The notes beneath the pieces were generated by a model. The model did not search any database. It was not told the origin of the DNA and saw nothing but the letters and a program-made list of their open reading frames with translations. Source: Bolinopsis microptera (taxonomy: Eukaryota; Ctenophora; Tentaculata; Lobata; Bolinopsidae). Taken from it: a stretch of 64,000 bases of DNA. Shown here piece by piece: positions 5,945 to 63,900 of the stretch; the stretch's first letter is position 1, and every line of letters starts with the position of its first letter. The translations under genes and the position numbers were made by a program. Location: the NCBI RefSeq assembly GCF_026151205.1, contig NC_087073.1:14403837-14467836 (forward strand), given 5' to 3'.

Positions 5945-6616
5945 CAGTTTACACAATTTATTGTTACTAAAATGTTTTTAAACGCATTTGAGTCTGTAAC
6001 ATATTGACATGTTACTGTTACTGACTCAAAATGTGCCCGAGAATTTTGTTGTTTAACAGAGTTTTACTCTCCAGTACTATGGAAAAGTTGTTACATGATA
6101 AATAAAGATTTTGATAAATAAAGTGATTTTCATCCCTTTTAATGTTATTGAAAATTGTGTAGACTATTCTTTGTATCTAACTGAGGATTGGAAGTTTGAG
6201 AAAGGACCATAGTCATTAACCGTGCTACCCATTTCTGCAGATAGCCTGTTACAAATTGTGGAGACAATTTAAATCAAAAGTTACTAAAGCGTTCGCTATT
6301 TGTTACGATTGTTATTACCAACCGTACCTCTTTCAATTGTGGACCGGGGTGGATGTTTCTGTCAAACAAGAGTTGGTACGACATTGTGTTGTTTTTCGGA
6401 CGAAACGATTCTTGTTTGGAACAAGATACCATTTTTGGGGTTCTGGGACCACCACCAATCGATTTCTTGTCATATTTAAGTACAGAAATAGCTACCTATA
6501 TCGCCTAGAAACCTCAGAGGGAAGATTTAAATTTTCCCGATTTTTCCGATATGAGGGTTGATGAGGCCAAAATCGGGATCGGAATGATCGGAATTGATCG
6601 GGTTGGACCCCCCCCC

Positions 6617-37600: not shown

Positions 37601-38812
37601 TCTGCATGGACAATTGGTATCTTATCTGTTTTCCTCAATTGTAGAGCTTTGATTAAAAATTCGACTACTCTCCACAAAAGCAAATCGGAGGCTGCATTTC
37701 TTACTAGTTCTCTGATAATTCTGATAAGCTTAGGAGATTTCCTGATCGGTATTTATCTGACAGCATTGGCTTCATTTGATAGTTACCATGGCGCTGGACA
37801 TTGTAAAGTACAATTACACTGGATCACAAGTCGTACCTGCATTTTCTTAGGTGTGATAAGTACAGTAGGATCGCAGGTTTCTTTATTTTCAATGACAACT
37901 TTGAGTGGCATAAGAGCTATTGGAATTTGTAAAAGTGGCAGCTCAGTTCCGAAAGAAATAACAAAGAAGAGAGTTCTTAAAGCCATCATTATTGTGCAGG
38001 TTATCGTTCTGTTTTCATTCGTAGTTTCTTATCTTCCGCTTCACAAACCCTTAGAGGACTTCTTCGTGAACGGTATCAAGTATGATGATTCCAATACCTT
38101 GTTTATGGGTTGCCCGGACAAGAAAATGCACGTGGCTATCCTTCAAGAATACTACGGAAGAATGACATTTTCAGAAGATCTCAGTTGGTCTTTAATCCAA
38201 GACTTGGTGGAGGGTATGTTTTCAGCGGACTACGGTGGGATCACTCATGAGACTCTTACTTTCTACGGTAACGATCCTGTTTGCGTATTCAAATATTTCG
38301 TCAAAATGGATGATCCTCAAAGAAACTTCTCACTCATCATTTTGAGCACAAACTTGTGTTGTATTGCAGTGATAACTGCTTCTTATGGAATCATTGCAGC
38401 TTCGTCAAAAAAGTCTATCAGTGCATTAACAAAACAAGGTCTAAACGCTAGTATAAAACAAGCTGACGACAGGCTTCAGAGAGTTGTCCATGCCATAATC
38501 ATTAGCGACTTCTTGTGTTGGATGCCATTCATAGTAACCAGTTGGCTTCATCTGTTTAGTGTTGTTGATGCCACGCCCTGGTATCCGATCTTCTCAATCA
38601 TAGTGCTCCCCTTAAACTCTGTGATTAATCCAATACTCTACGACACGGTCATTACAGGTGCTTTACATGCTGCATTCGAGAAGTTCACTCCAAAATGTTT
38701 GGATAAGTTAAATGTTATAAGAAACGTGTTTGTTGACCAGACGGCGCTAGACCGGGCGGAAAACTGTCTGGAAACCAGTGGTGTGGTACCGACTACCGGC
38801 CCTGTCAAGTAG
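34694..38812 (+). CDS. LDLa-repeat 7TM receptor (relaxin-receptor/LGR-like, no LRRs seen)
   Basis: Four exons (34694-34778, 34998-35151, 35390-35514, 35904-38812) give 1090 residues. Exon 1 is a signal peptide (MSGVLIKLRLVMQIISVFLP). A long Cys-rich ectodomain to about residue 670 carries several LDL-receptor class A-like modules with the CDxxxDCxDxSDExxC pattern, for example CDGQVDCEDRSDE and CNLVDDCDDGSDEELC. A rhodopsin-like 7TM domain follows (about 680-1040), with SLFSMTTLSGIRA after TM3, CWMPF in TM6 and PLNSVINPILYD in TM7, the pattern of leucine-rich-repeat receptors such as RXFP1. No leucine-rich repeats are visible between the LDLa modules and TM1. The loop before TM5 is unusually long (about 38040-38310) and Cys-containing. 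Ligand unknown; a peptide or glycoprotein hormone is likely by family. The whole 7TM and most LDLa modules lie in one exon. Confidence 0.85.
35572..35727. mobile_element. 156-bp MITE, copy 1, in a receptor intron
   Basis: It starts GGGGTCGTTCGC and ends ATGTGAATGATCCC, with TAA directly on both sides (35569-35571 and 35728-35730). The inner core CTATTGTGTTAAAATTACAC is identical in the second copy at 46235-46391. A 3-bp TAA target duplication with G-rich inverted ends fits a PIF/Harbinger-type MITE. It lies in the last intron of the LDLa receptor gene. Confidence 0.75.
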
Positions 38813-40614: not shown

Positions 40615-43600
40615 TCATGATCCTGTAAGAACGTCCTCTATTCCGAAGAAATTGATTCGTCTTTGTTCATCGGTGAGGCATTTCTCAATAACAGCCAGTA
40701 TGTTGGCAGGCCATGAGGGATCCGGCTCAAGACAGTTCCCTTCCCTGAGAAAAGTCATGCTAACACTAACTTTTACATCATGTAATAATAATCATTAACA
40801 TCTAATTATGCATAAATTGTGTTATTCAATAAACAATTGCCGATAAAGAATAATTCAATATAAATAAGTGTATTATATAATAGTCTAAGAACATGTAATT
40901 AGTGTGAATTAGTCTGTAATTAATCAATTAAATACCTGAAGTACTGGTCGAGTAGGTTGATGTCTGAGTTGCCATGGAGATCAGACACTACATTGTGGTA
41001 GGCGATGTTACCGCTGTACAGTTCCCAGAGTAACACACCGTAACTCCACACGTCACACGCTGAGTTGAACTTTACTTTGCCTCCCCCACTCAATACAGCA
41101 ATTACCTGACAAACAATCAGTGGTTATTATCAGTGCCAAATACTGGAGGGAAATAGTGGGAATATTCAGCTGAACGTCCTGAGAAATACTTGAAATATTA
41201 TGCATTATAAATAGTTTATAATTAATGATATAAAACGTCGCGGGACGATGCCTTAAATGTGCAATAATTATCATCAAGTCTTTATAAAGACAGCGTATTT
41301 TAAAGTATCTAATCGCTTAGCCAAAGCGTCTAACAGCTTGCCTAATCTTGTAACATATAAATTACAAGTCACAGGACCAGATAATGTACTCAAAGTGTAC
41401 CAGTGTAACAGCGTGACGTATAGTCTACGTTTAAGTGCCCACCTAGACTACTTAAGCACTTTAACACAATATATTATATCTCACAGAACAGCGGCACTGA
41501 AAACAGTTACAACAGTAGATAAATTATATATTATTGTCTCATTACACTCATGTTAAGCTCATAGAGCCGTGTTCTCTTTTATCAAGGTAAATAATATCTC
41601 AACTTATAACTACAATGTTTCAAGAGATTTGTGTGAATCATTAGTCTTCACAAGAAGCTGAGCGAGCAGATCGGGAGGGAGATGTCTCGTGGTTATAATA
41701 GATTAGCCCTACTTTAAATTAAAATTCATTCTCCAAATTATGCGCATTTAGATAACCTTAAATTTACGCCAGGTAGGGAATCCAGAAAAGTACCAGCAGT
41801 AACTGAAATGTGACCGACCCACGTGACCGACCCACGTGACCCTGCCACATCCTCACTATCTCTTACCTCAGGAGGGTAGATAACAAAGGTATCACTAGCC
41901 ATGATCCTCCTCTGCTGGTAATACAGCGCTTCAGTGACACGTGCCAGCCCAAAGTTAGTGATCACCACGTCGTTATAGTTGGTCATGTACACGTGCTCCA
42001 GTCGTAGGTTCCTATGCACACACTTGTTCAGTGACAGGTACTTCATTCCCGCACAGATCTGTACCGCGTAACTCTCACGTTGTTTCTCCTGTAATTTAGC
42101 GGGAATTTAGCTGGAATTAAGCGAGTTAAGTTGGCAGTTTGTAAGTAGCCTTCGTTATGTAATGATAATACATCAATCATTACATGTGCAAGTTCAGGCC
42201 CTCTAAGATGTTATGTAGTTATGTAGTTATGTAGTTATGTAGTTATGTAGTTATGTAGTTATGTAGTTATGTAGTTATGTAGTTATGTAGTTATGTAGTT
42301 ATGTAGTTGTACATTCCAATGTGTGAGGGTAGCTGTAAGAGTATGAGTAGAACAGTAATTGGCTTCATGTAGAATATGTTAGTGTTTCAACAGTCTGCAT
42401 TTTTAAGTCAGTGCTATAATGGCATACAGGGTCTTGCCCTGTATACCTTACTGTTATACAACATATCATTTACATATTATTATTTAGTTAAATAATGGTA
42501 TATTTATTGGCTTATGCAGCTCATTTAGGATATTTAGGATATTTCACGCGGCGCATGTTCATTGACTCACGTTTGTTACAGACCAACTAAATAGACTTTT
42601 TAAATTTGCATCTTTGTGACGGAACAAAATAAATCATTTACAATTACTTTAAAGCAGACACACACGACATGACTAGCTGCCATAAATTGTACAAAGCATG
42701 GTCTAAACATACATTATATAATGAGAGAAACGCCATTTTAGGACGAGAAGAGGATTAGTACTCCTCGTACTTCATTAAGTCAATTTCTTCTGTACTCATA
42801 ACATTGGCAATAATACGTACATGCTATAATTAAGCTTCTGAAGACTCTGTTGCGGTTAAATATAGCGAGTACCATCAACGGTAGAGTTGTCAGTTATTTT
42901 GAAAGCTCTGTGATGATCTCATATTTATAGCATGATTGCGGTTTGCTGACCCTATTTTGGGAAGTTTCCATGCCTCGGACTCTCAATCTAGAATCAGCAA
43001 CACGTACAATAATACGATCACAATTAATGTGTAATTATGCAGGAATTACAAGTAAAAGAGCTGTGAATTTAACCAATTAATACGATTTAACATACCGTGA
43101 TATTGTGACTGTTGTTATCCAAGAAGTTACTGAGAGATTTGTATCTGTAGCAAGGAGTTATCAACAGTAGAATATCCTCAAGTAACACACATCCCTTCAG
43201 AGGTACTATGTTCCTGTCAAGAGGTAAAGTGTTAGAACTTTAAATTAACAATATTTAGTGGTGTTAGGAGACATAAGGACATGTGATAAAACGCGTGAAA
43301 ATTTGCCCATCCCTAATTTTAACCCCCCTTTTTGTGTGAAATGATCCAAATTCCAAAGGTTCTAGCTATAATTACAAGCTGAGCTGCTGTCTCAAAGAAC
43401 AGCTCTGAAAGTGACTAGGTTTACCTGCCCATTGTTAACTTCAGTTGTATAATAACGTTATAATGACGTCACGTTCCGCCCCACCCACAGGCAGCTGGAA
43501 ATTAGGTGTAACAAATGATGGGAAAGTTAATTAACTCTCATCAATAATGTACAGGAATTCTACTTTTCTAACAGGTTTAGTCGCACTATATAACATCACA

Positions 43601-46600
43601 GTGACTATGGTTTATTATTATCGGGAGTTTCATTAGTTAGCAGTAACGCACCTGAGGGCCCCAGAAGGACCCCAGCTGTTCTCATAATTAAACTAATAAT
43701 TAACATCTCTAATTGAGGCATCAGCCATCACGTACACAGAGTACTGTTCTTACTGACCCACCTTCTTACTGCTACAATTATATACCTTTATCATGCAGAT
43801 TGCTCAAATATAATGCACTATGCAGTTCATCTCCAATCACGTAAAAGTGGCCGAGATCGGGCTAATTATTCTGAATTTGGAGTTTTTAAAATGACTCTAA
43901 TCTAATGATCTGCTCAGCAGCTACTTTTACCTGGCATATCAGCAATACTAACTTAACACGTACGAATACCCACTTATCAGGATTACTATACAACTTTCTA
44001 TTCCCTCTATTAGACAGATCACCGAACGCGTATGTGATTTTGTGCTATCAGAAGTTATAGTTCCCGAGAAGCTGTACGAGACCTGCCAGGACGTAATAAT
44101 ATCCTGCTTCGCCCACACTTTTAAAAATGTCATATTATTACGTTTACACATAAAGACATAAGTCATAATATACAAAACAAGGTGAAATACGAATGTTTAA
44201 ACGCAAACACAGAATTGTTGTCGTGCAAGATCACATGACAATACTCACGGGTGTTCGAACTTCAGCAGATGTTTCACCTCCTCTATAAAATCCTGTTCAG
44301 GAACGTCTTTACATTTGGAGTAAGATTTGACCCACACGTTCTTGTTGAGAGAGAATCTGGAGCACAGAGCTTCTATTTTAGGAGTACCTGGAGGTGGTAC
44401 CATGAAGTTCCCTTCGTCCGGTCCTGGAATGTGGCCCGGTTAAGGTTGGTTTTTTATAAAATACTATTAAAATTTCACAGATTACAGCAATGAAGTAATA
44501 AAAATTGATTAATGATGCACACCATCTGTAAAATTTGATGGGCGATGACCGCAATTACATGGACCCATTAATTGCAACTTAAATGTTGGTAAATTGTAAG
44601 TTAGTTGTTAGTAAATTGTTAGTTTCTTAACCTCTCGTCGTGAGAAATCCTATACAGTATAATTATTTGGTACAGTAAGTACAAGACATGTTATTACCCA
44701 TCTTTGAGTTACAGCAGTTGAATATTAATAACAAACACAGTTAGACACGTATTAGACACGTGTTAAACTTTTAAAGTAATAACATTTCTGTGCCAATGGA
44801 CCCCAACTTAAGAATAACGCCCGGTAAATTCTTCACCGGTTTATTCACGCAAAGTCATAAAACGGAAACCTTATCAGTTTACATACCAGGGAAAGAGAAT
44901 TTAATTCTAAACGAATTGACATAAGATTGGAAATATATCTACAGATCTGCCTTATTCGCACGGTTCGCAGGGATCCAAATTAATTTTCACAGTGATTTTC
45001 GCAGGAAAGAGAAGAACGATGAGGATGACTGAAGAGTATTTTTAACATTCCATAAATGTGTCTGGGTGCATTTTATCGTAACAAATTCCAGATTCTACAT
45101 GCAGAGCACGTTATCATAGTACACCCTCGGAAAATAAACCAGCTACATTTATAGAATATGAATGTAAATGATACCGAACATGTTATGTAAACAAAGTTGA
45201 AAAGTAAATTCATTCTATTAAAGATTTAATACAATGAGTTCCACAAGCACTATCTGAGACTAAATAGAATAACATTCCTCGCTTGGTATGGAATTCACAC
45301 GTACAATGTTGTTCTTTACGATCTAGATAACTTTACTGTTTGACATAACTTATGGTAAATTAAATGAAGACAGTTGAACAGCAACTTACATCTAGCGGTA
45401 GGTATGTACACTATGTAGGCCCAGCCTTTACTAAAGGTGCTTAAAATTCTCTGCGCAAGTTATATCATTGGAATTTTCCGATGTCTCTCTCGACTACACT
45501 TATAAAATTCACTTCGTGCTATCAGTGCCTGTACCTGCAAACTTTTTGGCAGTTTTTGGATATTCGCTTATATTACATTTGGGTGGGTTCCAAACTATAA
45601 GGTATGGAATGGACTTTAAACAATCTACAAGGTAGGCGTGGACTGGCAAGAGCTACTCTACATCAGATTACACAACTGTAAAGAAAGATATCACTCCAGT
45701 CCAATTTGATTACAGCGCGTGTGTTGGAGACACCATACTATTATTTTACGGATACCTCTTGGGTAACATTGCCATTAGAGATTGGTAAATGTGTGGCCAG
45801 TAATAACTAATAAGGTCAAGTCCCCTGCTTGTACACACAAGTCCCCTGCTTGTACACACAAGTCCCCTGCTTGTACACACAAGTCCCCTGCTTGTACACA
45901 CAAGTCCCCTGCTTGTACACACAAGTCCCCTGCTTGTACACACAAGTCCCCTGCTTGTACACACAAGTCCCCTGCTTGTACACACAAGTCCCCTGCTTGT
46001 ACACACAAGTCCCCTGCTTGTACACACAAGTCCCCTGCTTGTACACACAAGTCCCCTGCTTGTACACACAAGTCCCCTGCTTGTACACACAAGTCCCCTG
46101 CTTGTACACACAAGTCCCCTGCTTGTACGCTCAAGGTTACGACATACCGTTTATCCTGATAAACGGTATTTCGTTCAGACTATAAGAGTCTTCTAATAGT
46201 CTGGAAAACGTGGCTTGATTTCGCGGCTACATAAGGGGTCGTTCACATAATATTACGTGATCGCATTTTGCCAATTTTGTTAACCCCTCCGTACAGTAAT
46301 CAGTTTTACCCATAGCTATTGTGTTAAAATTACACTAGCGTAGTCATTAAGGAACCCCCTCAGTGATTACGTAATATGTGTGAACAACCTCTAACCCGAT
46401 ACTAATTTTAATGTAATTACATCCCAGCTATGCAGTTTAAGTTAATAAACTTAAACAATAACTTAGTTAATGAAAAAGTCACACTCACGCTGGAGATCAG
46501 AGAGTTGGAGCAGTTTGTCCTTCTCTAGGAGCATGTCTTTAACTTGGTTAAGCTGGCCCCCCATGTTAGAGGGAATGCGGGGTAGGTTACTCTTCTTACT

Positions 46601-49600
46601 GCTTAATAACACTACCCTCTTGTTGTCGTCCTCCTGGGGGCAGTTAGTGTCACACAGTGTGTAATTATGCTGTGTGTTGTTTGTAGTGTGGTGTGTATTG
46701 TTACAGGGTCTGATTAAACGAATTAATAATTAATATGAATGATCGGTATTATAAAGAGCCACCAGATGTAGAATCTACACTGTAGATCCAATCTAGTGTC
46801 TGTGACTCTGTATTATACTCCAGTGTTCAGCTGATGCGTAAGATTTGTCACTCACTTTATTTGTGATTACTAATCAGTGTACATAAGTTGAGGCTACTGT
46901 AGACCGGCGAGTCAGTATATTTATTATTTAATAACTAATTTATAAGTTAAACATACAGCTAGCTAGATAGTGTATTTATTACTTAATAACTAATTTATAA
47001 GTTAAACATACAGCTAGATAGTGGCTGGGAGCTGGCTCCTACAGGTACCTGGCTACCTGTAGTAATCCTACTTAGATTACTACAGGTAGCATTGGGAGTA
47101 ATAACTGTAATTTGCACATCGTAAATCTGTAAATAGGACCTGTCGTCGACGCTGACTGGAAATAATACAACGTATTTCGTTCGAGCATACAAAACATTTC
47201 AAAAACATTACAAAAAGCATCATTTAGTAAAAAGTACCGAGTAGTGAGTGAGCTTAGTGTCTTATCTATTACTAAAACTACAACAAAATAAGACAAATGT
47301 GCATATTTTTATTAGTTAGTCAAAAGAAAATAACCAAATAAATTAACAATTCTAAATTATGGTTTGTTGTTCCGAATAATAGCATTTAATTATAAATGAC
47401 ATTTAAAAAGGCCTGGCCGTATAAACAGTAAACATTGCAAATCACAGTTTAATGTTAAATCTGGTAATATAAATAATGGGGCGGAATCTTAATCCTTTTA
47501 GAAGTTAATGGATGATTGATCAAAATGGACAATTGTTGGGTTATAAACTTTTTATTTAAGTTTATAACCCAACAATTCTCGGATTAGTAACTATAATTCG
47601 CCTTCCCATGCAAACCGTGACGAAAATCTGGTAGAATATCTATTTTATTCTCCAGCGGAGGTAAAATGTCAAAAATAACGACTCAATCTCTTAGTAATAA
47701 CTCTCAAAATACATTTTAGGAGCTCTCTCTATTGGCTGTCTTGAGGGAGAGGCCTATAAATAATCTTCATAAGAGGGAACACCAGCACAGCTCCAGACAG
47801 AAGTCCCAGCGCATAACTAAAAGATAACAAAGTCCCAGCAAAGGATTTGCCCCTTTTAGTCTGCATCATCTGCGGGCCGTACAGCGCCGCCAGAGAAATG
47901 AAGTGTCCGTTGGTCCAGGAGAGGAGGAAATTGAAGAGAGCTGCCCAGGCGTCATTATGAAACCACACTGACACGTTCCTAGGGTGAAGGTTAGTCATGT
48001 AGATACAAGGTACGAGTAGGAGTCTAATGTAGGATACAGGTAGGAGATAGGTGGGGGTAGGGAGAGAGTAGCAGCTGGAGGTGATCCTACCTAGCACATC
48101 TCCAACACTGAACACAAGGAATACTGTGACAGGCAGGAAGTAACCAGTCCAGCTCTCCTCCGCGCCATGATCAATGGGCCTAGCAGAGGACCTCAACATG
48201 GACAAGGCTGCTGGGAAACAAACTGATGTGATGGTTGAAGTGAGCACTGTTGTCAGACAAAACCTCCAAATCACTTTAAACACTGACATCGCTGTATTCT
48301 TCTGGGTTGTTGCTTCATCAGGCACTTGAGCATCTCTTGGTGAAAGCAGTTCTTTTCTTTCTGCTCCGATAATTTCAGCATTATTTGAACTCTTTTTTGA
48401 TGTAGCGATCTGAACAAACTCAGTCCTGCCGAAGACAACAAATACTACAAGGGAGATGAGCAGTGTAAAGGAAGCTATCAAGAAGTAATAAAAGCCAGCA
48501 GATACCGGATCAGAGTTAGGAAAAGCAAGAGTAACAATACAGAGGAGGGCAGAAAAGAGACCCGCTAACCCCTGACCTAGATAAAATCCCTGGACTGCAT
48601 TGGTAGTGAGGATAGATGACAGACCCATCATCCCAGACATGAAGATAGCAGAGGTGAACATGACAACACCGAACAGCATCATGGTCATGATGAAGAAGGA
48701 GAAGGCCCAGTTAGCGGTGTTGAGGTAAGCTGTGACCGTGATGACCAGGAAGACGAGCAGGGCTGAGGTGTTACAGAGAGTCACCACTGTCACCAGGTTG
48801 TGTATCTTGAGGACGACTACACCCAGCAGGGCTGCAATGAAGTTGGAACCTATTCCTACGATCTCAATGTAGCTTGGGAAGTTGTTTATGATGGTTTCGG
48901 AGTTGGTTTCAGAAAACTTAGCCACGTGAAAACCGTTAGCGGTGATCATGAGGTTCCAGGGAAGGAGAGATGCCAGACCAAACAGTATCATCACACTGTA
49001 AATCCTCCAACTGGTGCGAGCGTCTGGTTGGCGGCTTGCCAATAATGGTTCTGTCTCTTCAGTCATCTTCAAGGGTGGAAGATTCGGGTCATAAACTGGC
49101 GGATTAATCAGTTAAATCGGGGTACAAAACCGAACTTTAGTCATGAGCATTCTAACCAATATAATAATGCAACCTTCGTAGGTCGAAGGATTTAATGTTT
49201 GACTAAACGTTTCCTCGATAGAAAATAAATTACGTTCTTTAAACTTCTTTCCATAAAATGAGACATAGCAGTCTAAGTTTTACGATCATAATTTCGAATA
49301 TCATGGTTAAAGCCAGAGAATAATATTAATGTGGACAATTTTGGAAATAATTCAAATATCATACAATTTCCTCCAAATTATACAATGACCAATGTACAAA
49401 AAAAGGGGTACGTGTTAAGTAACTATAATATAACAATAGCTATTTGGATGCGAGCCAGCAATGGCGTAAAGGGCAAACTCGAACGTTTATAAAAATCACA
49501 AAAATTAATAGAAATCAGGTAAGGTCCATTTCTGAGAAATGGAAGTTTACAGGATGATGCTGAATTTATCAATATTTAGATTGTAGATATTATCGGTCAA

Positions 49601-52600
49601 CAATAATTGCCATGAAAAGTCTCGAGCTAAATGTTGGAATAAAAAGACGGTCGAAAGTGATTCAGCTTGACAAAAGAAGTGATCCGAATTAAATTTATTT
49701 TAATCTGAATGTTGTATTGGAAATGGCCCATTTCCAATAAAAAGTTATGTATTTCTAAGAAATCAGTAGGCAGATCAAATTAAATAGTTAAAAACAATCA
49801 CATATATGTAGACATAGATGACGTCACGATTCATGTCAAAATTTCGTTTCTGTAATTGTTGTGGAACACAACAAGAAAATTGAGAATAATCTTGTGCGAG
49901 GGTAGGGACCCAGATGTCGTTTCTAACCCAAAAAAACTTTAAGGAGGCTTCTCATCAGTAGCCGCACCTCCTTACTCGGTTTCTGAACTGGAATTCTATG
50001 GGCTTCCAGACGGCCAGACCGAGTATTACCACCCCATCCTTCTAGAGTTCATCACAAGTAGCACCCACCTTGAAGATCTTTGACACCCAGACACACCCCA
50101 TTGGCGAACAAACTTTGGATATAATCTTACATGCTCCCGAAGGAATCCCTGGTTTATGGTCTTTCTCATCGTCACCAGCACTTTCACTAGAGTCACCAGC
50201 CCAATCTCGGAACTGGTATTTGACCTACAGTGATTTCATTGTGCTAGTAAAGATTTATGCCATAATTCCAAAATTATGTCATCCGGCCACTGCTTTTCAT
50301 TGTCCATAGAAAAGTACTTGAAACACTGACAGGTTTTCGTAAAAATGTTAGGAAAGTGGAGAATGTCAATTTATACTAATATTAAAATAATAATATTACC
50401 GATGAAAAAAAACCGTTCTAAGTCTCAATTTGGATATGTGACCTTAAAATGAACAAACGCAATTAAAATACGCAGCCAAAAAGAACAACATATTATATCA
50501 AGAGAGCAGCACAATTAGTGACAGCGAAAACAAAATCATGTTCACATGATTGGAGAATAAATAAGAATTAGTAAATGAGGGATCAAAATTATTGTATGGT
50601 ATTAATTACACATTATACAAGTGAATAATATGTAGAACATGCGAGGAAACCGAAGACCACGTTCACAGGCCACATGGCGTAAACTGTTTACATATCGGAT
50701 GTGGGAAATATTCTAGAAGGTTGAGAAATATTGATAAGATTAGCCCCCTGACCACGTACGGGTCATTATCTCTCCTGGTTATATTACAGCTGTAATGTGA
50801 GTTAAGTGGAGTAGGGTTCGGGGGCTTTTAAGATCTAGGGGGTGTTCAGTAAATTGGATTAAAATTAGGTTTAATGACAGACTCTGTTCATATCCTTTAT
50901 CTGATGTTCGGACTTCCTCTAGACTTTTCTTGATTTTCAGAATATATACAGATCGTTCTGAAATCGGAAGGTTGTTCAGTGTTCTAGAGTGAAACCAGAT
51001 GCGTATCCCTATAATTTACGCTAGACCGCTTTTCAGAAATAGTTTCTTCACACGAATACTTGAAACATATAGAAACTTACTAAGTTCAACTAGATCTATA
51101 AGCAAAGGAAACGTAAACATAACCAAACTGATTTCTCTTCCTTGAGACCCAACTGAGGAAGCGTAAGCAAATTAAAAACCATAAAAACATGCATAATATT
51201 ATGAAAATTAACAGTATATGCGGAATATTACATATATTAATTAGTATAGAATATATAATAATATGTAACTTTAAAATTGCCCAGGACACGTGCGGTAACA
51301 ACCAGTACACTAACAACTGATCTATCATAATTTTGACAATTTGTTATCACTGCGTAGATTTGCGAGGGTGAAGAGTGAGATTTCAAAAGTTATTAGATAT
51401 TATACTACTACTCACTACTGTCTTCTTGCACAAAGATCGAAATCTAAAATTGAGCCCTGATAGGAGCTACACTGCTCTTCATTAAATCAAATACGCTTAC
51501 CTCAACTAGGGTGTATTTACAGTTGGACGGTTCTGTCACGTTTACATCGAAATCAAGCTTTCCATTGCCAGCCTGCGGTAAAAACAGAATAAATAAAATA
51601 CAACGCAATCATCTGACTGGTGGTTATATGGTGGTAAGACCTATTATCTGTACATTACCCGAGAGAAATGACCACACTGCTACAGTGCTACGGGACTGAA
51701 ATCTGAATTTGACGGGAACATTGTAGTAAAATATACCGGGTCCTTAACTCCAAATAGCACAAATTATAAAATATACGATTATTTTATTATTTGTAGTACC
51801 GGTACACACACGGTAACATTTAAAATAACAGAAGTTAACCTTGAGTATGAAATCTGAGGAGGTCGGTTCCTCAATGTTGACAACGTCTGCCAACTCTTCG
51901 TAAGCTGCCGCTATCTTCCTGAACTCGTACTTCTCCTGGCAGGCATGTTAATTAGGTGGTATTAATTGGGAATTAGGTGGAATTAGACCGTGGGAGCTTT
52001 GGGAAAAGCTGACTTTTACTTCTGGAAATGACATTGATTGAACATACATTTTCAAGGTTTTCAAGCGCTCGAATTTCAACAGAAAAAGCGATAAGCGCTT
52101 AAAAAAACAGAAAACGTACATAATTAAAAAGATTAGAAGTGACATACCAAGTTATCCTTGTTGCCCCACGTAACACAGACACAAATAATCTTCTGTAGTT
52201 TATTGAGGAACTCTGTGTCTGTGTTGGGCAGTCTGAAGTAGCCCCCACCTGTAAACCAAGAGAAATCCTTGCCCTGTGATTGGTAGTGGGTCAATCATTT
52301 TTATTGGATTTTAAATTAGGAATAGAATTATGTCCCTAAAACTTCAGAGTGGAGTCAGATAGCACAGGGCACAGATTTTCTATGTTAATCACCAAAAGAA
52401 ATGGGAACAGATATCTGTTGCTAAAAATGTGTGTCATAATATTTGACTTTTAATCGATTGTTCCTTTTAAATACTAATAAATGATGTTTAACTGTGATGT
52501 ATGACACTGGCATGTTTTTTATTGACACACACGCAACTATTGAGGCAACTCGGCCCTAAGGGTCTTTGCTGATCTAAACAGCCCAATCCATAAACTTTGA

Positions 52601-55600
52601 AACAAGTTACGATTTGTGTAAAATGTTAATTGATGCAGTTTTATTGACAACACCATGTAAATTGTAAATAATCTCCTAGTACGATAGCTGGTGTGGCAAT
52701 ACAACCTGCATCATATAATGGTATCTTTATTTGGCGGTCTGATTCAGTCGCACCTTTCAGACTTTAATTATGAAACAGAATAGCCTCTTCAGAACTAACT
52801 CATTTAAAAGAGAATGATTTGTCAAAGAACTCAAATCGCAGGAACCCTCTAAATATCTCGCCACGTAGTATTTACGCCTAAAGACTTGAAAATACGATTG
52901 TTAAGGGAGATAATTACTAAATTATTAAGTATCAGACTCAAATTCATTGCGCAATAACGCCCCCTTTACAAAAGCTCGTCGTTACATGGTCAATAATAGC
53001 TCAACTGAGTCCAGTAATAACAGATTGTTTTATTTTGGTCGACTGTCCGCAGCTATTATGATTTGCTTGACAAGTATACTTGTTTATGTGTATGTCTGTT
53101 CGCTGACTCAGGGTATCGCTGCTCAGAAGGAGGATTTAGATGAATGCTTGCTCAACACGGCTACTGCGTTCAATGTTGTATCCGGTAAAGAATGGGACCT
53201 TGCTTTCAAAGGCAAAACCGAGAAATTCATCAAGGACTTGGGATCAAAGAGATGTCGAGCTATGAATGAGTTTGGAAATTCCTATGCTTACTGTATCAGT
53301 TCTGGAGACTGGAAAGAGGTACTGAATACACAATGTTTTTTTTAAATGTCTTTAATGTGAACGAACACAATGAAATTTAAATACTTTAATAAATAAAAAT
53401 ACTCGATGAATTTTCATTAAATGTAAACATAATATTTGTATCTCAGGTCTGTGAGGAATTGTTTAAGAAGGCCAGAAAAGGTTCCCTTGCTATGGACAGA
53501 AGTAACCCAGCAACCAAAGGAGCCTGTTCAACTAGATACTATCTAGGGAAATACTACGCCTACTGCAGGTTTATGAAACCGATCAGGAAGAATGTTTGAT
53601 GGTTGCACTTTACAAGTTTTACCAGTTGCAATGTGATTGTGTCTGTGAATATCTTATTATAGTTTAAGTTGCTGTTGTTCAATCTTTAAAAATACATTTT
53701 TTTAACACAATCGATTTTTACTTTTAAAATGACGTGCTGAATGGACTTGCGAAACAGAGAATTGAGCTCGCTTAAAAACTCTGCACACCACAAAAAAACT
53801 TGCTCTCAAAACTGAATTATCAAATTATATAATTATCAAACCTCAAGTTTCTCGAGGATATCCTGATCTGATTTGTCGGGGAGAGGTACAGCTCCCTTGT
53901 TGTACAGCTGCCACAGAGTACACCCAAACACGTACCTGGGGTGAAGTGGTGTAAAAACTGAGAAATTCGGTTTATTTTGATGACGTGTTATACAGTTTAG
54001 TTCGGTAAATTTATCACTCCTGGGATAGTGTTAATGTTTCTTTTAACACAACACACAATAAAAAGATTACAAACAAGGAAGTCCTGACTATAAAGTTAAA
54101 AACTATGATAACAGACATGTAACGAGTGCAATCGGCTATCTTTTTGTTCGAGCATTCGTTGAAATCTTAACTGAAAAGCAGTCATTCGACTTCACTAGAA
54201 TTTATGATAGTTCAGGACTCCCTTTTATAATAAAAGGTTATCGTCTCCGATCGAAATGCAAAATATCGCGTTAGAATTTAAACGAAGTATGTCGGCTAGA
54301 AGGAAGGTAGTTGTGAGGTGAGAGACTGTTGAAGGTAGCCGATTGCACCAAGACTCAGCTCACCTGTCAACCTCAATGTTCCAGGGAGCGTTAGAGAATA
54401 TCATGGAGCGGTGGAGCCACCTAGCAGGGTGACCATATGAGGCAAGGTGAGGCAGATACTCTCGTAACAGTAGAGGGTTGTAGACATCTCTACGCTTGAT
54501 CAGCTCAGGGAGAATCCCAACAAACCTTAGTTTCACAATCCCCTTTGAACAGATGCTGATATTGTGCATGACGGGGAAGCCGTGAACTATCCTCTTCTCG
54601 TGCAGATACAGAATACCAGCTACTATTTGTTTTCCCAGGAAGTATAACTGCTCAACAGAGTGCTGAAACTTGCTTAACCGGACATTAAGAAGGGTAGAGA
54701 AGGATTCCTCAACAATACAGGGCATCTGATTCAGTCTGTAGACTCCTACAAACTCAGCTAGATTCTGATGGGCTATCCCACTTGTGTGGAGACCCTTGAT
54801 ATGTTCTATCAGCGGCACTAGAATGGAACTACCATAGTTCATGTTATGAGTTACAAACTGTGTCACAGACACAGGCCTGACTGTTTTGGGAGAATGAAGC
54901 ACCCCCGTGTGTCGTATGTAGAGGTAATGGTAGGAGCGGGGGATGGGTGATAATGCCACGTTCATGGGTGAGAGGGTAGGCTCACGCTTGGTGCTGTAGA
55001 CGGATTTATGTTCTGCGATCTGCATTAAATCCTCACATGTCACAGGGTCTTTGAGCTCCATCTTCTTCTTCACTGCATCCGTTTTGTCCATAAAGTTAAT
55101 CTGGTTGAAGAGTTTGATCAGAGACAGATACCCATGCTGATTGTCGATCTTGAAACGTCCACCCTCTTTTACTTCTATCCTTCTAGACCTAAACCTGTCT
55201 CCGATAACCATGAAGAAGTAGTATTGGTTTAAAATCTTTGCCGGTTCTTTGACAAGAAAATTATCCGTCACCAGAAATTTAGATTCGTTTCCGGGAGAAC
55301 GTAAAATTTGTTCAGCCTCATCCGCATTCTCGATCTTCATGACGTAAGAACATTTATCAACCAAAGAATAATTGAATTGTGTGTGCTTATTCCTGTCCTC
55401 AGCAGTGTTCACAATCACAAACTTGGGGTCATGATAAATTAGCGATTCTGAGTGAAAATCGTCGGAAAGTTTGTGATCCAGAATATGGTTACCTGGAGAA
55501 GTTTTCTTGTAAGCCATGTCTAGAAGGGTGAGAAATGATTCTACACTCGTCCTTGAGCTAAACGTCAGTTCATGACGAGAGTTTGGGGCAGTGACAATTG

Positions 55601-56300
55601 TAGCACTGTGATGCTTGAAGTTAAACTGAACTTTGTCAATATTTGTCAGTATGATTTCATAATCACTCAACAGTAGAGATGATTTAGTAATCTCAGCACG
55701 AATATGTTGAGTTGCATCTGTTGAACAATCAAATATGCATCTCTTTCTGCTTTGTTCAGTGACATTTTTAATTAATTTACATTTCACCGCCATGAGATTC
55801 TCACTGCACTTTAGCAGGGACTTGGAAACGAGCTCCATAATCTCACCGACAGAAACTGATGTAAACCCTAAAACAGGTAGCAAATAATTTACCATAACCT
55901 CAGATACATCGCTGATACCCAGTTCTGACAATTTGACCGCTAGAACGCTGGCAATGTCACCCGAGTTCTCTAGTGGGCTACCATTTGTCTTTAAATCATC
56001 AACTGACTGAAGATAAATGTAGTTAAAAACTTCGGGACACTGATGGACAATGTCTTCTATGTTTAACAGTGATGTTGGGAATCTGTAGTAAAACGACCCC
56101 TTGATGTGAGCATCAGGATTTTTCTTTGAGTACGGAAGGCAGTAACTCTGATTGCAGAACAGGGTACCAAACTTGAAGAGATCAGGTGAAACTCGCACAT
56201 CTTTGGCAAGTCCGCAGAGTAACTCAAATCTTGTAGCTTTCCGGGGAAACTCCATCTTATAGCCATTGTACAAGTGAATTGTGGTCTTAGTATGTATCAT
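40615..56300 (-). CDS. JAK-family FERM-SH2-pseudokinase-kinase-like protein
   Basis: Twelve minus-strand exons (54364-56300, 53842-53935, 52148-52273, 51840-51935, 51501-51572, 50069-50224, 46489-46633, 44249-44423, 43096-43213, 41867-42088, 40936-41105, 40615-40744) close in phase to 1146 residues, the length of JAKs. JAKs couple cytokine receptors to STATs. Residues 1 to about 270 are a FERM domain (LYNGYKMEFPRKATRFELL, FYYRFP). The SH2-like part (about 320-410) has FLVTDN where FLVRES is expected, so the phosphotyrosine arginine is missing. The pseudokinase (about 480-735) has HGFPVMHN for HRDLAARN. The last domain (about 892-1146) keeps the beta-3 lysine, HPNIV and DVWSYG, but has HRN for HRD and NFG for DFG, so it is predicted inactive. 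The roughly 150-residue linker is longer than usual. Intron 6 contains the SLC29 gene, intron 2 a plus-strand gene. A split into two genes at intron 6 remains possible. Confidence 0.75.
42211..42308. repeat. TTATGTAG octamer repeat
   Basis: About twelve copies of TTATGTAG in a row inside the intron between the 43096-43213 and 41867-42088 exons of the JAK-like gene. Confidence 0.95.
45817..46131. repeat. 21-bp minisatellite, 15 copies
   Basis: Fifteen copies of a 21-bp unit with core AAGTCCCCTGCTTGTACAC, identical except the last. The unit length is a multiple of three and lacks stops in most frames, so it opens several false ORFs on both strands. It lies in an intron of the JAK-like gene (between exons 44249-44423 and 46489-46633). 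Confidence 0.97.
46235..46391. mobile_element. 157-bp MITE, copy 2, in a JAK-like gene intron
   Basis: It begins GGGGTCGTTCACATAATATT and ends ATATGTGTGAACAACCTC, with TAA on both sides (46232-46234 and 46392-46394). It shares the ends and core of the copy at 35572-35727. The two ends can pair over about 25 bases. Confidence 0.78.
47531..47577. terminator. 18-bp perfect hairpin with AATAAA in the loop, SLC29 3' flank
   Basis: AATTGTTGGGTTATAAAC at 47531-47548 and its exact reverse complement at 47560-47577 flank an 11-base loop. Read on the minus strand, the strand of the SLC29 gene ending at 47729, the loop contains AATAAA. Another minus-strand AATAAA is near 47643. The hairpin may present a polyadenylation signal of the SLC29 transcript. 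Confidence 0.5.
47729..49066 (-). CDS. SLC29A3: Equilibrative nucleoside transporter (SLC29A3-like)
   Basis: A 445-residue, intronless protein starting at the ATG at 49066. It has the SLC29 layout: a short N-terminal tail, six helices, a hydrophilic loop (about residues 225-265, KKSSNNAEIIGAERKELLS) and five more helices. TM1 has the ENT signature GLASLLPWNLMITANGF, and GRITSS occurs near the helix 8 region. ENTs carry nucleosides and some nucleobases down their gradient. The N-terminal ETEPLLASR is a [DE]xxxL[LI] dileucine signal like the one that sends human ENT3 to lysosomes, so an endolysosomal location is likely. The gene lies on the same strand inside intron 6 of the JAK-like gene and has its own polyadenylation signals. 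Assignment to the ENT family is firm; the orthology to SLC29A3 rests mainly on the dileucine motif. Confidence 0.9.
   Translation of the reverse strand: MTEETEPLLASRQPDARTSWRIYSVMILFGLASLLPWNLMITANGFHVAKFSETNSETIINNFPSYIEIVGIGSNFIAALLGVVVLKIHNLVTVVTLCNTSALLVFLVITVTAYLNTANWAFSFFIMTMMLFGVVMFTSAIFMSGMMGLSSILTTNAVQGFYLGQGLAGLFSALLCIVTLAFPNSDPVSAGFYYFLIASFTLLISLVVFVVFGRTEFVQIATSKKSSNNAEIIGAERKELLSPRDAQVPDEATTQKNTAMSVFKVIWRFCLTTVLTSTITSVCFPAALSMLRSSARPIDHGAEESWTGYFLPVTVFLVFSVGDVLGRITSSCYSLPTPTYLLPVSYIRLLLVPCIYMTNLHPRNVSVWFHNDAWAALFNFLLSWTNGHFISLAALYGPQMMQTKRGKSFAGTLLSFSYALGLLSGAVLVFPLMKIIYRPLPQDSQ
49067..50068. other. JAK-like intron 6, upstream part
   Basis: About 1 kb between the SLC29 start codon and the JAK exon at 50069-50224. 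It must contain the SLC29 promoter. No exon with kinase similarity was found, which matters because the JAK exon at 50069 needs a phase-0 partner; the nearest candidate is at 46489-46633. Confidence 0.5.
52986..53599 (+). CDS. Small signal-anchored Cys-rich protein nested in the JAK-like gene
   Basis: Two plus-strand exons (52986-53318 and 53447-53599) with gtactg/tctcag splice sites join in phase 0 to 161 residues. After a short Ser/Asn-rich tail comes one hydrophobic segment (residues 19-40, LSAAIMICLTSILVYVYVCS), either a signal anchor or an uncleaved signal. The rest, about 120 residues, has six cysteines, in DECLL, KRCRA, YAYCIS, VCEELF, GACSTR and YAYCRF. The C..(about 11)..YAYC spacing recurs in the two exons, which suggests an internal duplication with disulfide bonds. 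I do not recognise the family. It lies on the opposite strand inside JAK intron 2 (52274-53841). The first in-frame ATG is used; the ORF also runs 13 codons further upstream without an ATG. Confidence 0.65.
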
Positions 56301-56943
56301 CCTTGACTAAAGGATCGCAAGGGTTATAAATCATATTATATCATAATATTGCGAAATTTTACGTGTTGCACATCTTAGTTAAACAACAAATATATATCTT
56401 AACAAAATCTTTTTCATTAACGTACTAGTACTATGTCAATGAGGATAGCTCAAGTCTGGTGTCTCCACTTCAACTCAACTGAGATACAGCTATATAACTC
56501 TCATCATACGATATTGTGTAACTGGCTCGACGATAGCTGCTCAATGCCCTATTTGGGTCAGATCGGAATTCGAAATTATCAATGAAATAGTGTACCACTT
56601 ACTCTCAATATTAGGAGAGCTCATCGGCAGTTTGTTCTAGAAGGCTTACATTTTCAAAATAAAGTGGGGTGGTGATGAAAGGTGGAGTAATTCTATATAA
56701 AATTAGTCGATGCTCGGATGGAAAGACGATCAACGAAATGATTAAGACGGTCGGTATTACGTTAATGGAACTGTAGCAGCTGATCTACAAATCAATTTTT
56801 TTTGTTATCTCGTCAAGTAATTAAAACCGATGAAATTTGACACCACCACACCATCGTGCTGAAATAAAACATTCAACTTGCCTCATGCCTGGAACCCGAA
56901 CTGTAGTTTAAAAATACTGTCGAGATTAAGAAAATAAACCAAC
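56301..56943. other. Interval between the two JAK first-exon cassettes
   Basis: 643 bp. On the minus strand I find no kinase-like exon after the upstream cassette, and neither AATAAA nor ATTAAA. It presumably holds the promoter of the downstream cassette, with a stop directly before the ATG at 56300 (TAG TCA AGG ATG). Confidence 0.55.
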
Positions 56944-59141
56944 CTGTCCCATGTTTCCTGGAGTTTCTCCTCGGGATACTCGTGTAGCATCCTGACCCTT
57001 TTCTGTGAGAACCAGCTACTTAACAACTCGTTCACTTCCGGACACTTGGCCGCTTTTAAGAATGAACTCCCGTGACTTGAGGAACCCTCGTCAGATCTGT
57101 GGGTTTCTGAAGCATGCATTATGGCTGATAGGATTCCTATCTTTCCCAGTTTAACTTGCTTCCGAGACTCGTTGATGTAGACGTTTTGAAGAGCAGGAAA
57201 GCCGTGGACTATATCCCGATCGTGAAGAAACTGCAAACCGTTCTTAATCTGTCTCCCAAAATCATACAGCTGATCAACAGTGTAATCTTGAACAAATGTG
57301 TCGGAGAATTCAAGTCCAAATTGTTCATGAACATAGTATATGGTGTTTAATCCGTCATCAGCATATCCAAAACACTTCAAGATATTTTCATGGACAAATT
57401 CCGGTCGGGATATTTCAGCAATTCTTGCAACAATGGTCAACGAATCCTTCTCCATATACTTCTTGTTGTACAGAAAAGCTCGAATGGCTTTCTTCTGTCC
57501 TTGTGGACTGACCCAATGACCAGTAAATGATGTGCAGAGAGATTTAGTACAAGATGAATTAGGAATTAAATTGAGGCAAAATAATGATAAGATGTTTGAT
57601 TGTTTATGAAAATCATGGTCTGCATCTGAGAAGAACATTTTGGTTTTGCGTATGTCTGTGATCATTTCTTCAGTGACTATCTGAGTTGGGCGAATGACAA
57701 GGTCCTTGTTGCGGACACGGATTTTGATGCTGTTTAAGAGTGCTTCAAGGGAACGATATTTGCAAGGCAGCTCTGTTGGACCAAGGGTGCTTTTCTTTTT
57801 CTTAGAAGTTTCATCAACCATGAAATAACCATCCTTGTTAACTACTTTAATAGGATGAGTCTTCTTGTCCCCGTTAGTCTCAGAGTTCAAAACGATGCAA
57901 AGTAGGTAGATATGGGGTAGATATGGGGGCTTAAAGAGAACATACCAACCAACTTGGAACCCAAGATCTCTCAGAATCTGACGAGACTGTTTGACACTAA
58001 CAAACTTCAAGGGAAGCCCACTTTTTTCGATAACATTATAGATATTTGTGGATGTTTGGGACTGGTTCAGTTCATTATATGTCATAGCATATGAATCAAA
58101 ATGGTTGTTTGATACTGGCTCAATTAGCATTATGGATTTGACTTTTCCTCTGAAATACATGTCAATTAAAGCTATACATGATTCAAGATCTTTGCTGCTG
58201 TCGGACAATATGGTTATGTCTATAACAGATGAGTCTGCCAAATGTAGCTGAAACCACTTTTGTTTAGATTTGCATAGTTTGAGTCTTGTCATTTGGTCAT
58301 AATCAGCTGCTACAACAACTTGTCCTTTCTCTGAGGATGTGATACATATTTCATGCTCTGAAATCGAGAGTATTGCTTGATGACATACTTCAACAGAAAG
58401 TTTTTTGTTATTAACTGAAACTGAGACTTGGAAAGTATGTAGTGGTCTGCAGAATGTTTGGTCATCAATAGTTTTCACGAAGGTATAATGAATTTCATCA
58501 GCTGTGGAAAATTTTTGAGCAAAGTAATTGGCATTTTCAATAATAGGCACACTGTTGGCTCTCACAAAAGGACTGTTTGGAACATCTAAAAGTCGCAACA
58601 ACTTCTCAAAATTGAGCACATTGCATGACAAATTCAGGCGCTTTAGCAAGCCTGCAAACAATAAGCCATATGTTGAATACACCCAAGTAATTCTGTTTTC
58701 AATGTTAACGCAATATTTCAGAAAGCGATAGAAATCTGCTTTAGCTTGATGAAAAATATAATTGAATGTTTCAGAATCACTGTGTAGAATGTCACTCAGT
58801 TCAACATGCTGATGAAACACTCTAAATGTATATTTTCCATCATTCTCAGAAATGGAAATAAATCTGCAATATGGCAGCAGATAACTGTCAACAGTGCCAT
58901 TTGTGATCAAACTGTATTGAAAACTTGATTGAGACAGCCTTGATTGTTTGGCACATTGCTGCATAAGATCAAATGTCGACTGGTAGAAGTTGAACTTTTT
59001 CTTGCCATGGCCATGGTTGAGTTGCTTAATAAAACTCCCCTTGTAGATTATGTTGCTCCCATTGTGAAGACTAACAGATGCAGTTGGGAGTTGGAGCTTG
59101 CTGTAAATTAGCCTATTAAGGCCAAGGTCTTCGAATAACAT
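56944..59141 (-). CDS. Second JAK-type FERM-SH2-pseudokinase exon (alternative first exon?)
   Basis: A single large exon codes 732 residues, then a donor (GACAG|gttggt) in phase 2. The FERM part has SVSLHNGSN, KFNFYQSTFDLMQQCA and YTFRVFHQH, matching the F1 lobe of JAKs. The SH2-like part has GWYVLFKPPY near residue 395, where JAK2 has GLYVLRCS, so phenylalanine replaces the binding arginine. The pseudokinase has HENILKCFGYAD and IVHGFPALQNV for the catalytic loop. It stops at ETWDR, the residue at which the downstream exon stops (EVDR), in the same phase. Without splicing it would run 20 codons to a stop. The start is taken at the ATG at 59141; an open frame continues to 59198 without ATG, so an upstream exon may exist. 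If joined to the exon at 53842-53935 and those after it, the product is 1233 residues. Confidence 0.7.
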
Positions 59142-62946: not shown

Positions 62947-63900
62947 TTATCCAAATAGATCGTCTCTGTCAAACCTTGTTGACTGTTCCACGAATTTGAT
63001 AATGTGGTCGAGTTTACTATTGATGAGTTCCTCAATTGTTAGGATGGGTTTACCAAATATCCTCATTCTAGTTGTCATCAGCTGGATGCATTCACATAGG
63101 AAGTGTTGTGATGTTTCTGCTTCCCCTGGGCAGTGTTCACAGTCTTGTGTTTCGAAATTGGAGTTGTTTGCTACCGTCTGGAAGTATGCTAGTGGGCTGT
63201 GTCCTGATAGTAGCCATGTTAGCCATCTGATGTGAGTACCTGTGATGTTAATTTTCTTGTACCTGTTTTTGTTGAGGAAAAATGTTAGTGGGGTTTTTCC
63301 TTTATCACTGAGTGCCACCTGTTTATACTTCTTGATATGGAGATTGAAGAGGTAATCTTTTATTTGGGTGTTGATTATAGTTCTTTACCGTATACTCCTT
63401 CATGTCCTGGAACAAAGTTCTACTCGATGCGAAAACCTAGCGAGTTGAGTTGGTCTGAGATGTTCAGAACGAACCTGGAGTTAAAAGTGGTGCTGTTAAG
63501 GGCTTTAAATGCAGCCTGGGAATCTGAGAGGAATTTATGATTGATTGAGATCCTAAGTTATCATTAGTCCAGAAACTTGCCATGTATAACGCAAATAGCG
63601 GGTACGATTTCCTCAATGAACCTGAAGAAGGAATATCTGTCCTGAATTGATACCATGTAACGTCGAGCTTAAAAATGAATCAAAAGTTCGAGTAAATCGT
63701 TAAACGTTGTATGTCCTATTTGCATCCCCTAAGCATTGCATTGATGTTTATTTCTGGTCCGGTTAGCTTTGCGTCTCAGAAATAAAGAGGTCCACTATGC
63801 TTAAAGAGCTAAGCTGTCCACCAGGGTACTGTAGATCTAAGGGTTCCCCGTGTAATGGGGCAGGCTGTGATAAAGCATCTCTGCAGGATGTCCGAGATGA
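62947..63900 (-). pseudogene. Decayed non-LTR retrotransposon (linker fragment and RNase H to C-terminus)
   Basis: Reading on the minus strand, the region near 63840-63900 gives LQRCFITACPITRGTLRS and VPWWT, like the endonuclease-RT linker of LINEs. Then, after an apparent deletion of the RT, comes an RNase H-like part: FLSDSQAAFKALNS (about 63480-63540), then, after a stop, NFVPGHEGVYGKEL. The open stretch 62947-63318 codes GTHIRWLTWLLSGHSPLAYF and a C-terminal CEHCPGEAETSQHFLCEC zinc-knuckle-like motif, usual at the end of such polyproteins. Several stops interrupt the frame, so it is dead. Confidence 0.65.

Follow-up and report, generated by a model that had tools for sequence, protein, structure and literature searches.

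The window analysed here, 64,000 nucleotides (nt) of the ctenophore Bolinopsis microptera (contig NC_087073.1, C2:14403837-14467836), carries on its minus strand a JAK-type gene, hereafter locus J1, in which two large exons with similar predicted domains lie in tandem ahead of a single set of kinase-like exons. The question that this locus raises is whether the one tail is spliced to either of the two heads, as was proposed in an initial annotation of the sequence, or whether the upstream head belongs to something else. The best-supported reading, which we favour with moderate confidence on sequence grounds, is that the alternative JAK heads A (downstream) and B (upstream) share one tail. It draws on open spliced models of both combinations with a complete tail, a second locus of the same layout, a genome count of five heads against three tail starts, a normal donor and an intact frame in B, and a half-pseudokinase in B that shows no visible relaxation. 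The ctenophore source is borne out by a glutamate-receptor frame of the genome, whose best relative of solved structure is Mnemiopsis ML032222a; the closest copy in this genome of the 114-residue piece of that protein shows 81% identity. Coordinates are in window numbering except where a chromosome (C2, C8, C9) or J2 is given.

Two head exons and one tail

Head A and head B lie in stop-to-stop open frames of 648 and 772 amino acids (aa), with in-frame ATG codons at 56300 and 59141, respectively. The coding part of A ends in phase 2 as GTTGACAG followed by gtgagc at 54364 and that of B, also in phase 2, as TGGGACAG followed by gttggt at 56944; both terminate in D-R with the split codon AG/G. 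The earlier description of two minus-strand exons, each encoding FERM, SH2-like and half-pseudokinase parts, was borne out, the SH2-like part as a putative one, with FERM and SH2 weak for each sequence taken singly. The amino acid identity of B to A is 24%. The common phase-2 break was likewise confirmed but does not count as independent evidence, since the intron position is inherited: the heads are homologous and all five heads found in the genome end there, so a common end is expected.

The first tail exon, t1, fits the phase of the heads and reads YVFGCTLWQLY as had been claimed; its acceptor is ccccag and it completes AG/G as arginine. The tail comprises ten exons and ends at 40615, and in it all acceptors (10/10) are AG, all donors before the last exon (9/9) are GT and all phases match. 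The window pseudokinase is finished by t1 to t3, ahead of the second kinase domain. A start of t2 at 52248 was rejected because of a phase mismatch, which the acceptor ahead of 52273 resolves, and exon l1 is the least certain of the ten because it was the one candidate from the stretch between t4 and k1 to exceed the cuts in splice score. The spliced models contained no internal stop and gave products of 1094 aa for A plus tail and 1181 aa for B plus tail.

The layout is repeated at a second locus

Four of the five heads (A, B, C and D2, but not D1) were used as queries against the whole genome (264.65 Mb), and JAK-type heads were found at three places, all on C2, namely J1, J2 and J3 (Table 1). 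A whole-genome search with the 32-residue peptide of t1 detected this exon once at each of the three JAK-type loci, so that at this search sensitivity five heads stand against three detectable tail-start exons. With the same query no second tail-start exon was found near the window, in agreement with the earlier statement that the upstream exon B has no kinase exon of its own. The order head, head, tail is found again at J2. No further heads were seen by eye among the listed frames in about 15 kb upstream of J1, 11 kb upstream of J3 and 10 kb upstream of J2. A weak match of B at C9:16671330 was dropped; it is a two-kinase frame that we take to be GCN2-like.

The beginning of head C recurs at C2:16321588-16321863 (+), 180 kb from C itself, in a copy that is 99% identical over 92 residues and is then cut off. 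This copy belongs to a 1.57-kb, 98% copied block that includes upstream DNA and that arose either by recent duplication of part of the locus or by duplication in the assembly.

Table 1. Predicted features of the window locus J1 (window numbering) and of the other two JAK-type loci
Feature	Coordinates	Strand	Content	Basis
Head B (upstream)	56944..59141	-	FERM, SH2-like, first pseudokinase half; 732 aa + 2 nt; donor CAG/gttggt	open reading frame, JAK profile
B-A gap	56301..56943	-	643 bp; no canonical polyadenylation hexamer; weak acceptor-like sites ahead of A	
Head A (downstream)	54364..56300	-	FERM, SH2-like, first pseudokinase half; 645 aa + 2 nt; donor CAG/gtgagc	open reading frame, JAK profile
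t1, first tail exon	53842..53935	-	YVFGCTLWQLY..., start of second pseudokinase half	phase fit; 43-45% identity to t1 of the other two loci
t2	52148..52273	-		acceptor tcacag, donor gtatgt, phase fit
t3	51840..51935	-	pseudokinase end	splice sites and phase
t4	51501..51572	-	linker	splice sites and phase
l1	46489..46633	-	linker and start of second kinase domain	sole candidate above splice-score cuts between t4 and k1; phase
k1	44249..44423	-	second kinase domain, degenerate glycine loop and beta-3 lysine region	phase fit
k2	43096..43213	-	second kinase domain	phase fit
k3	41867..42088	-	second kinase domain, HRN for HRD and NFG for DFG	PK_Tyr E 1.6e-12 for the frame; alignment
k4	40936..41105	-	second kinase domain	phase fit
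k5, last exon	40615..40744	-	carries the stop codon	phase fit
J2	C2 5.344-5.354 Mb		heads D1 (5344197-5346165) and D2 (5346626-5348635); one tail with HRD and DLG	
J3	C2 16.12-16.14 Mb		one head, C; tail with HRD and DLG	

JAK identity and predicted activity of the tails

A profile built from the five heads gave its best match to full-length JAK1 (7t6f, E 6.5e-18), a score that comes partly from matching both JAK1 kinase domains, and the next match was an EGFR chain that contains two kinase domains (1.7e-16). One collinear stretch of the profile, with an i-Evalue of 1.2e-5 over its full length, ran through the JAK1 SH2 domain into the pseudokinase, and the JAK1 FERM stretches were collinear but weak (2.6 and 8.5 bits). 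For A and B the kinase part (PK_Tyr) was the only Pfam domain over the cut-off. When all five heads were searched at a limit of E 5, with D1 represented by its first part only, PK_Tyr was listed for four and FERM_M for two, the best FERM_M value being 3.1e-7 (head C). We therefore consider a FERM domain to be present in the head family; for A and B singly this assignment is made through their alignment with C.

The SH2 segment of head C alone scored 13.8 of 21 bits, under the Pfam cut-off. An AlphaFold model of the whole of head C from the five-row alignment was unusable (mean predicted local distance difference test score, pLDDT, 38.6), and the SH2-like stretch was therefore modelled by itself (pLDDT 70). 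With a threshold of E 0.001 Foldseek gave no match to this model, and the best 50 of 423 matches included no SH2 domain. In a VIA structure comparison, SH2-containing chains made up 43 of the 50 rows listed, with Z scores of 5.1-6.0 that the tool rates as middling, which supports an SH2-like identity but does not prove it.

The pseudokinase of A, B and C reads HGFP where a kinase has HRD. In the alignment of the window's second kinase domain, HRD is replaced by HRN and DFG by NFG, so that both catalytic aspartates are missing, and the glycine loop is degenerate in sequence; for these reasons the domain is predicted to be inactive and the tail to be a pseudokinase. Its top matches were EGFR and MET chains, followed by JAK1. 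The kinase domain of J2 matched JAK1, JAK2 and TYK2 strongly, with only the two-kinase-domain EGFR chain scoring above them, and the tails of J2 and J3 retain HRD and DLG and look active. We call the window gene JAK-type because the active C-terminal tyrosine kinase of a JAK is, judging by motifs, lacking in the window and present at J2 and J3. The proposal that a kinase-like tail is coupled to different receptors must be modified in the same way: the tail in the window appears dead, whereas that of J2 looks active. A genome search for STAT gave one match over the cut-off with STAT_bind (E 4.2e-4) and none with STAT_alpha.

The state of head B

The frame of B is intact across all 732 codons. 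Under free drift the chance of B staying open would be about 0.04 after 1% divergence (assuming 0.1 indel per substitution), an estimate that rules out a long-dead B and leaves room for a freshly dead one. The half-pseudokinase of B is 20-27% identical to those of the other heads, compared with 20-36% for that of A and 20-24% for the FERM-SH2 part of B, and it is not visibly relaxed. The donor scores were 9.1 (A), 7.7 (B), 6.1 (D2), 4.6 (D1) and 4.1 (C), with a median of 6.7 over 21 known donors, and on this score a decayed donor of B was rejected. That half a kinase fold is retained right up to the splice junction would presumably be meaningful only with the second half spliced on.

The strongest of the alternatives, which we still regard as unlikely, is that B, and likewise D1, forms a short gene of its own whose mRNA ends in or just past the exon and encodes a FERM-SH2 protein carrying a half-pseudokinase, such as a receptor-occupying decoy, with spliced-leader trans-splicing separating B from A within a unit of two genes. 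This would fit the 20 codons by which the frame continues beyond the donor to a stop, and also the good acceptor 23 nt ahead of the ATG of B, given the wide leader trans-splicing described for ctenophores (PMC8527503). However, the donor and the half-pseudokinase, presumably needless in such a product, have been kept, and neither AATAAA nor ATTAAA occurs in the B-A gap or in the D1-D2 gap (shuffled gaps also lacked both hexamers in about 35% and 22% of cases, respectively).

It is decidedly improbable that B is a recently silenced, unused remnant of a partial duplication, with A and the tail forming an ordinary single gene. Its counterpart at J2, D1, is frameshifted and partial copies do arise in this genome, as the truncated copy of the start of C illustrates, but the open frame of B and its normal donor both speak against silencing, and an identity to A of no more than a quarter of the residues suggests that B has been kept for a long time.

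5' ends and joins between heads

The best acceptor-like site within 25 nt of the ATG scored 6.9 for B, 6.6 for C and 5.4 for D1. The best site of head A scored 3.5 and lies one base ahead of the ATG, and D2 has no acceptor within 30 nt of its ATG and a site of 3.0 at -65. At random places 16% of sites reach 3, 8% reach 5 and 5% reach 6, and among 20 known acceptors four fall short of 3.5. In variable-first-exon clusters the internal variable exons have no usable 3' splice acceptor. A model of alternative first exons thus needs internal heads that are poor in acceptors, and A and D2 look so, with the doubt that five cases and a small matrix leave.

A spliced leader is found on at least 56% of Hormiphora Iso-Seq reads and leader trans-splicing is wide in ctenophores (PMC8527503), and because of this, a leader trans-spliced ahead of B, C and D1 could take the place of separate promoters. 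A Hormiphora-derived spliced-leader pattern gave 79 matches against 78 for the reversed control, so that leader genes are not indicated. At C8:7889747-7895419 a leader-like 21-mer is repeated twelve times in tandem, about every 513 bp.

Joins of B to A were examined at 11 AG sites around the start of A, and 10 of these led to an early stop or the wrong frame; the one in-frame join uses the site of 3.5 immediately ahead of the A ATG. At J2, none of the eight AG sites around the start of D2 gave an open join of D1 to D2. By these frames a two-headed product is possible at J1 and not at J2. We consider it very unlikely that B and A are in fact spliced together into a protein with two FERM-SH2 units and one tail, because, even though the joining acceptor keeps the frame and is the best that A has, it scores under 15 of 20 known acceptors, the join is closed at J2 and an unfinished half-pseudokinase would sit in the middle of the protein.

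An artefact, in which B has a tail of its own that is absent from the assembly or too divergent to detect, is similarly far-fetched: ctenophore genomes are rich in nested genes (PMC8527503), a short divergent tail exon could escape the search, and the published Bolinopsis assembly, if it is the same one, was made with wtdbg and polished with short reads (PMC10232365), but B and A are only 643 bp apart in a window containing no ambiguous base (N), the same layout is present at J2, a J2 kinase query matched one JAK-type kinase exon in the window, and a collapse of two similar tails would not produce the order head, head, tail.

History of the heads

In a tree of the five heads, D1 and D2 grouped together with support of 96/96, and the constrained pairings B with D1 (p = 0.035), A with D2 (p = 0.031), A with D1 (p = 0.019) and B with D2 (p = 0.037) were all rejected. 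The branching order among A, B and C was not settled by the tree. Given this grouping and the four rejected cross-locus pairings, J1 and J2 probably each underwent a head duplication of their own that left out the tail, a history that is favoured rather than proven; gene conversion is another way in which D1 and D2 could have come to group.

Weighing a probable shared tail

Several observations weigh against alternative heads on a shared tail. Every branch of the tree is long, and D1 and D2 drew a program warning as a pair of long branches that meet, so attraction may be involved. D1 has a single frame break at about 5345655 in a run of six T, the rest of it being open, which is either an assembly error or a real mutation; an intron at this place was rejected on reading the sequence. 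The first two ATG codons past the likely acceptor of B are out of frame, one join of B to A does stay in frame, and BLAST of the five upstream stretches against each other gave only short matches at chance level and one low-complexity match between D1 and C. The missing polyadenylation hexamers ahead of A, correctly noted in the initial annotation, are compatible with chance and carry little weight.

If heads A and B do share the tail, J1 would be one JAK-type gene with two tandem alternative heads, each a roughly 2-kb exon and each spliced separately to the common ten downstream exons, which would supply the rest of the pseudokinase and a second, predictedly dead kinase domain. B would be joined to 53935 and A skipped. 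Separate start sites, spliced-leader trans-splicing or a common 5' exon may each account for the 5' ends, and mutually exclusive use of the two giant exons or trans-splicing would yield the same products as separate promoters. Receptor specificity of vertebrate JAKs resides in the FERM-SH2 half, and heads A and B may bind different receptors or partners, while the common tail could scaffold or regulate the active-looking JAKs encoded at J2 and J3. A bolder and, taken as a whole, rather improbable scenario is that in ctenophores a JAK gene was made head-swapping twice independently, that J1 with its double-pseudokinase tail yields two receptor-specific dead JAKs tuning the active ones, and that the 5' ends are supplied by trans-spliced leaders rather than by separate promoters, which would let a single primary transcript give either head.

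Swapping heads on one tail would, if true, diversify receptor specificity within a single gene in a very early-branching animal lineage. Whatever the splicing, three JAK-type loci in a ctenophore, two of them with active-looking kinase motifs, bear on the origin of JAK signalling. The available text of one study places an early JAK in sponges, with ctenophores outside its sampling (PMC13203501), ctenophores are said in another to retain the fewest JAK-STAT parts (PMC11193209), and the words JAK, Janus, STAT and SOCS do not appear in the main text of the Mnemiopsis chromosome paper (PMC11797021).

Other features in the window

An intronless nucleoside transporter frame (47732-49111, -; PF01733, E 6.3e-44) is nested in the intron between t4 and l1 on the same strand and is outside the JAK-type product; many nested genes parallel to their host gene have been described in the ctenophore Hormiphora (PMC8527503). 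Within the long tail region a tandem minisatellite (45746-46179) has several open frames on both strands, for example with the repeated CVQAGDL. At 35849-38812 (+) a single open frame of 987 aa encodes low-density lipoprotein receptor class A repeats followed by a rhodopsin-type seven-transmembrane domain, a layout that we take to be relaxin-receptor-like. A 145-aa frame at 62947-63384 (-) resembles by eye the C-terminal end of a protein of a retrotransposon without long terminal repeats (non-LTR), and a long Ser/Pro/Leu-rich low-complexity stretch with several open frames at 4175-5970 (+) is probably a simple repeat.

Comparison with known systems

The Janus kinases comprise JAK1, JAK2, JAK3, TYK2 and Hopscotch. 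Like them, J1 has FERM, putative SH2-like, pseudokinase and kinase-like domains in this order, in predicted products of 1094-1181 aa. It differs in having two alternative heads, in a second kinase domain without the HRD and DFG aspartates and in a weak SH2-like part, in which the FLVR-type arginine, a motif of SH2 domains, is not evident in the alignment. Among the matches listed in literature searches on JAK in ctenophores or Mnemiopsis, on alternative first exons of JAK and on mutually exclusive splicing in ctenophores, titles and the starts of abstracts contained no such locus. In these sources we thus found no earlier report of the layout in a JAK, whereas the layout itself is known from other gene families.

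UGT1, UGT2A, GCNT2 and the clustered protocadherins have a layout of this type (PMC1885805), in which, as at J1, tandem homologous large exons with the start codon and the N-terminal domains share one 3' phase and one constant set of exons. UGT2A, like J1, has just two variable exons, with 64% nucleotide identity (PMC1885805) compared with 24% residue identity between B and A. The variable exons of UGT1 and of GCNT2 are each driven by a separate promoter, with a conserved upstream motif in UGT1 (PMC1885805); no such motif was found by BLAST of the stretches upstream of the five heads. The earlier comparison with UGT1A and protocadherin clusters holds for the tandem exons, the one phase and the one tail, and finds no backing in a common upstream motif where separate promoters are concerned. 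J1 is also unlike UGT1-type clusters in that the split falls inside a kinase-like fold. Mutually exclusive exons are likewise tandem and homologous with the same 3' phase, and the broken frame of the D1-D2 join at all eight sites is of this kind, but the exons of J1 and J2 are about 2 kb long with start codons of their own, and B and A can be joined in frame at one weak site. Both J1 and J2 have the tandem homologous exons, the same 3' phase and the single constant region that are seen in variable-first-exon clusters.

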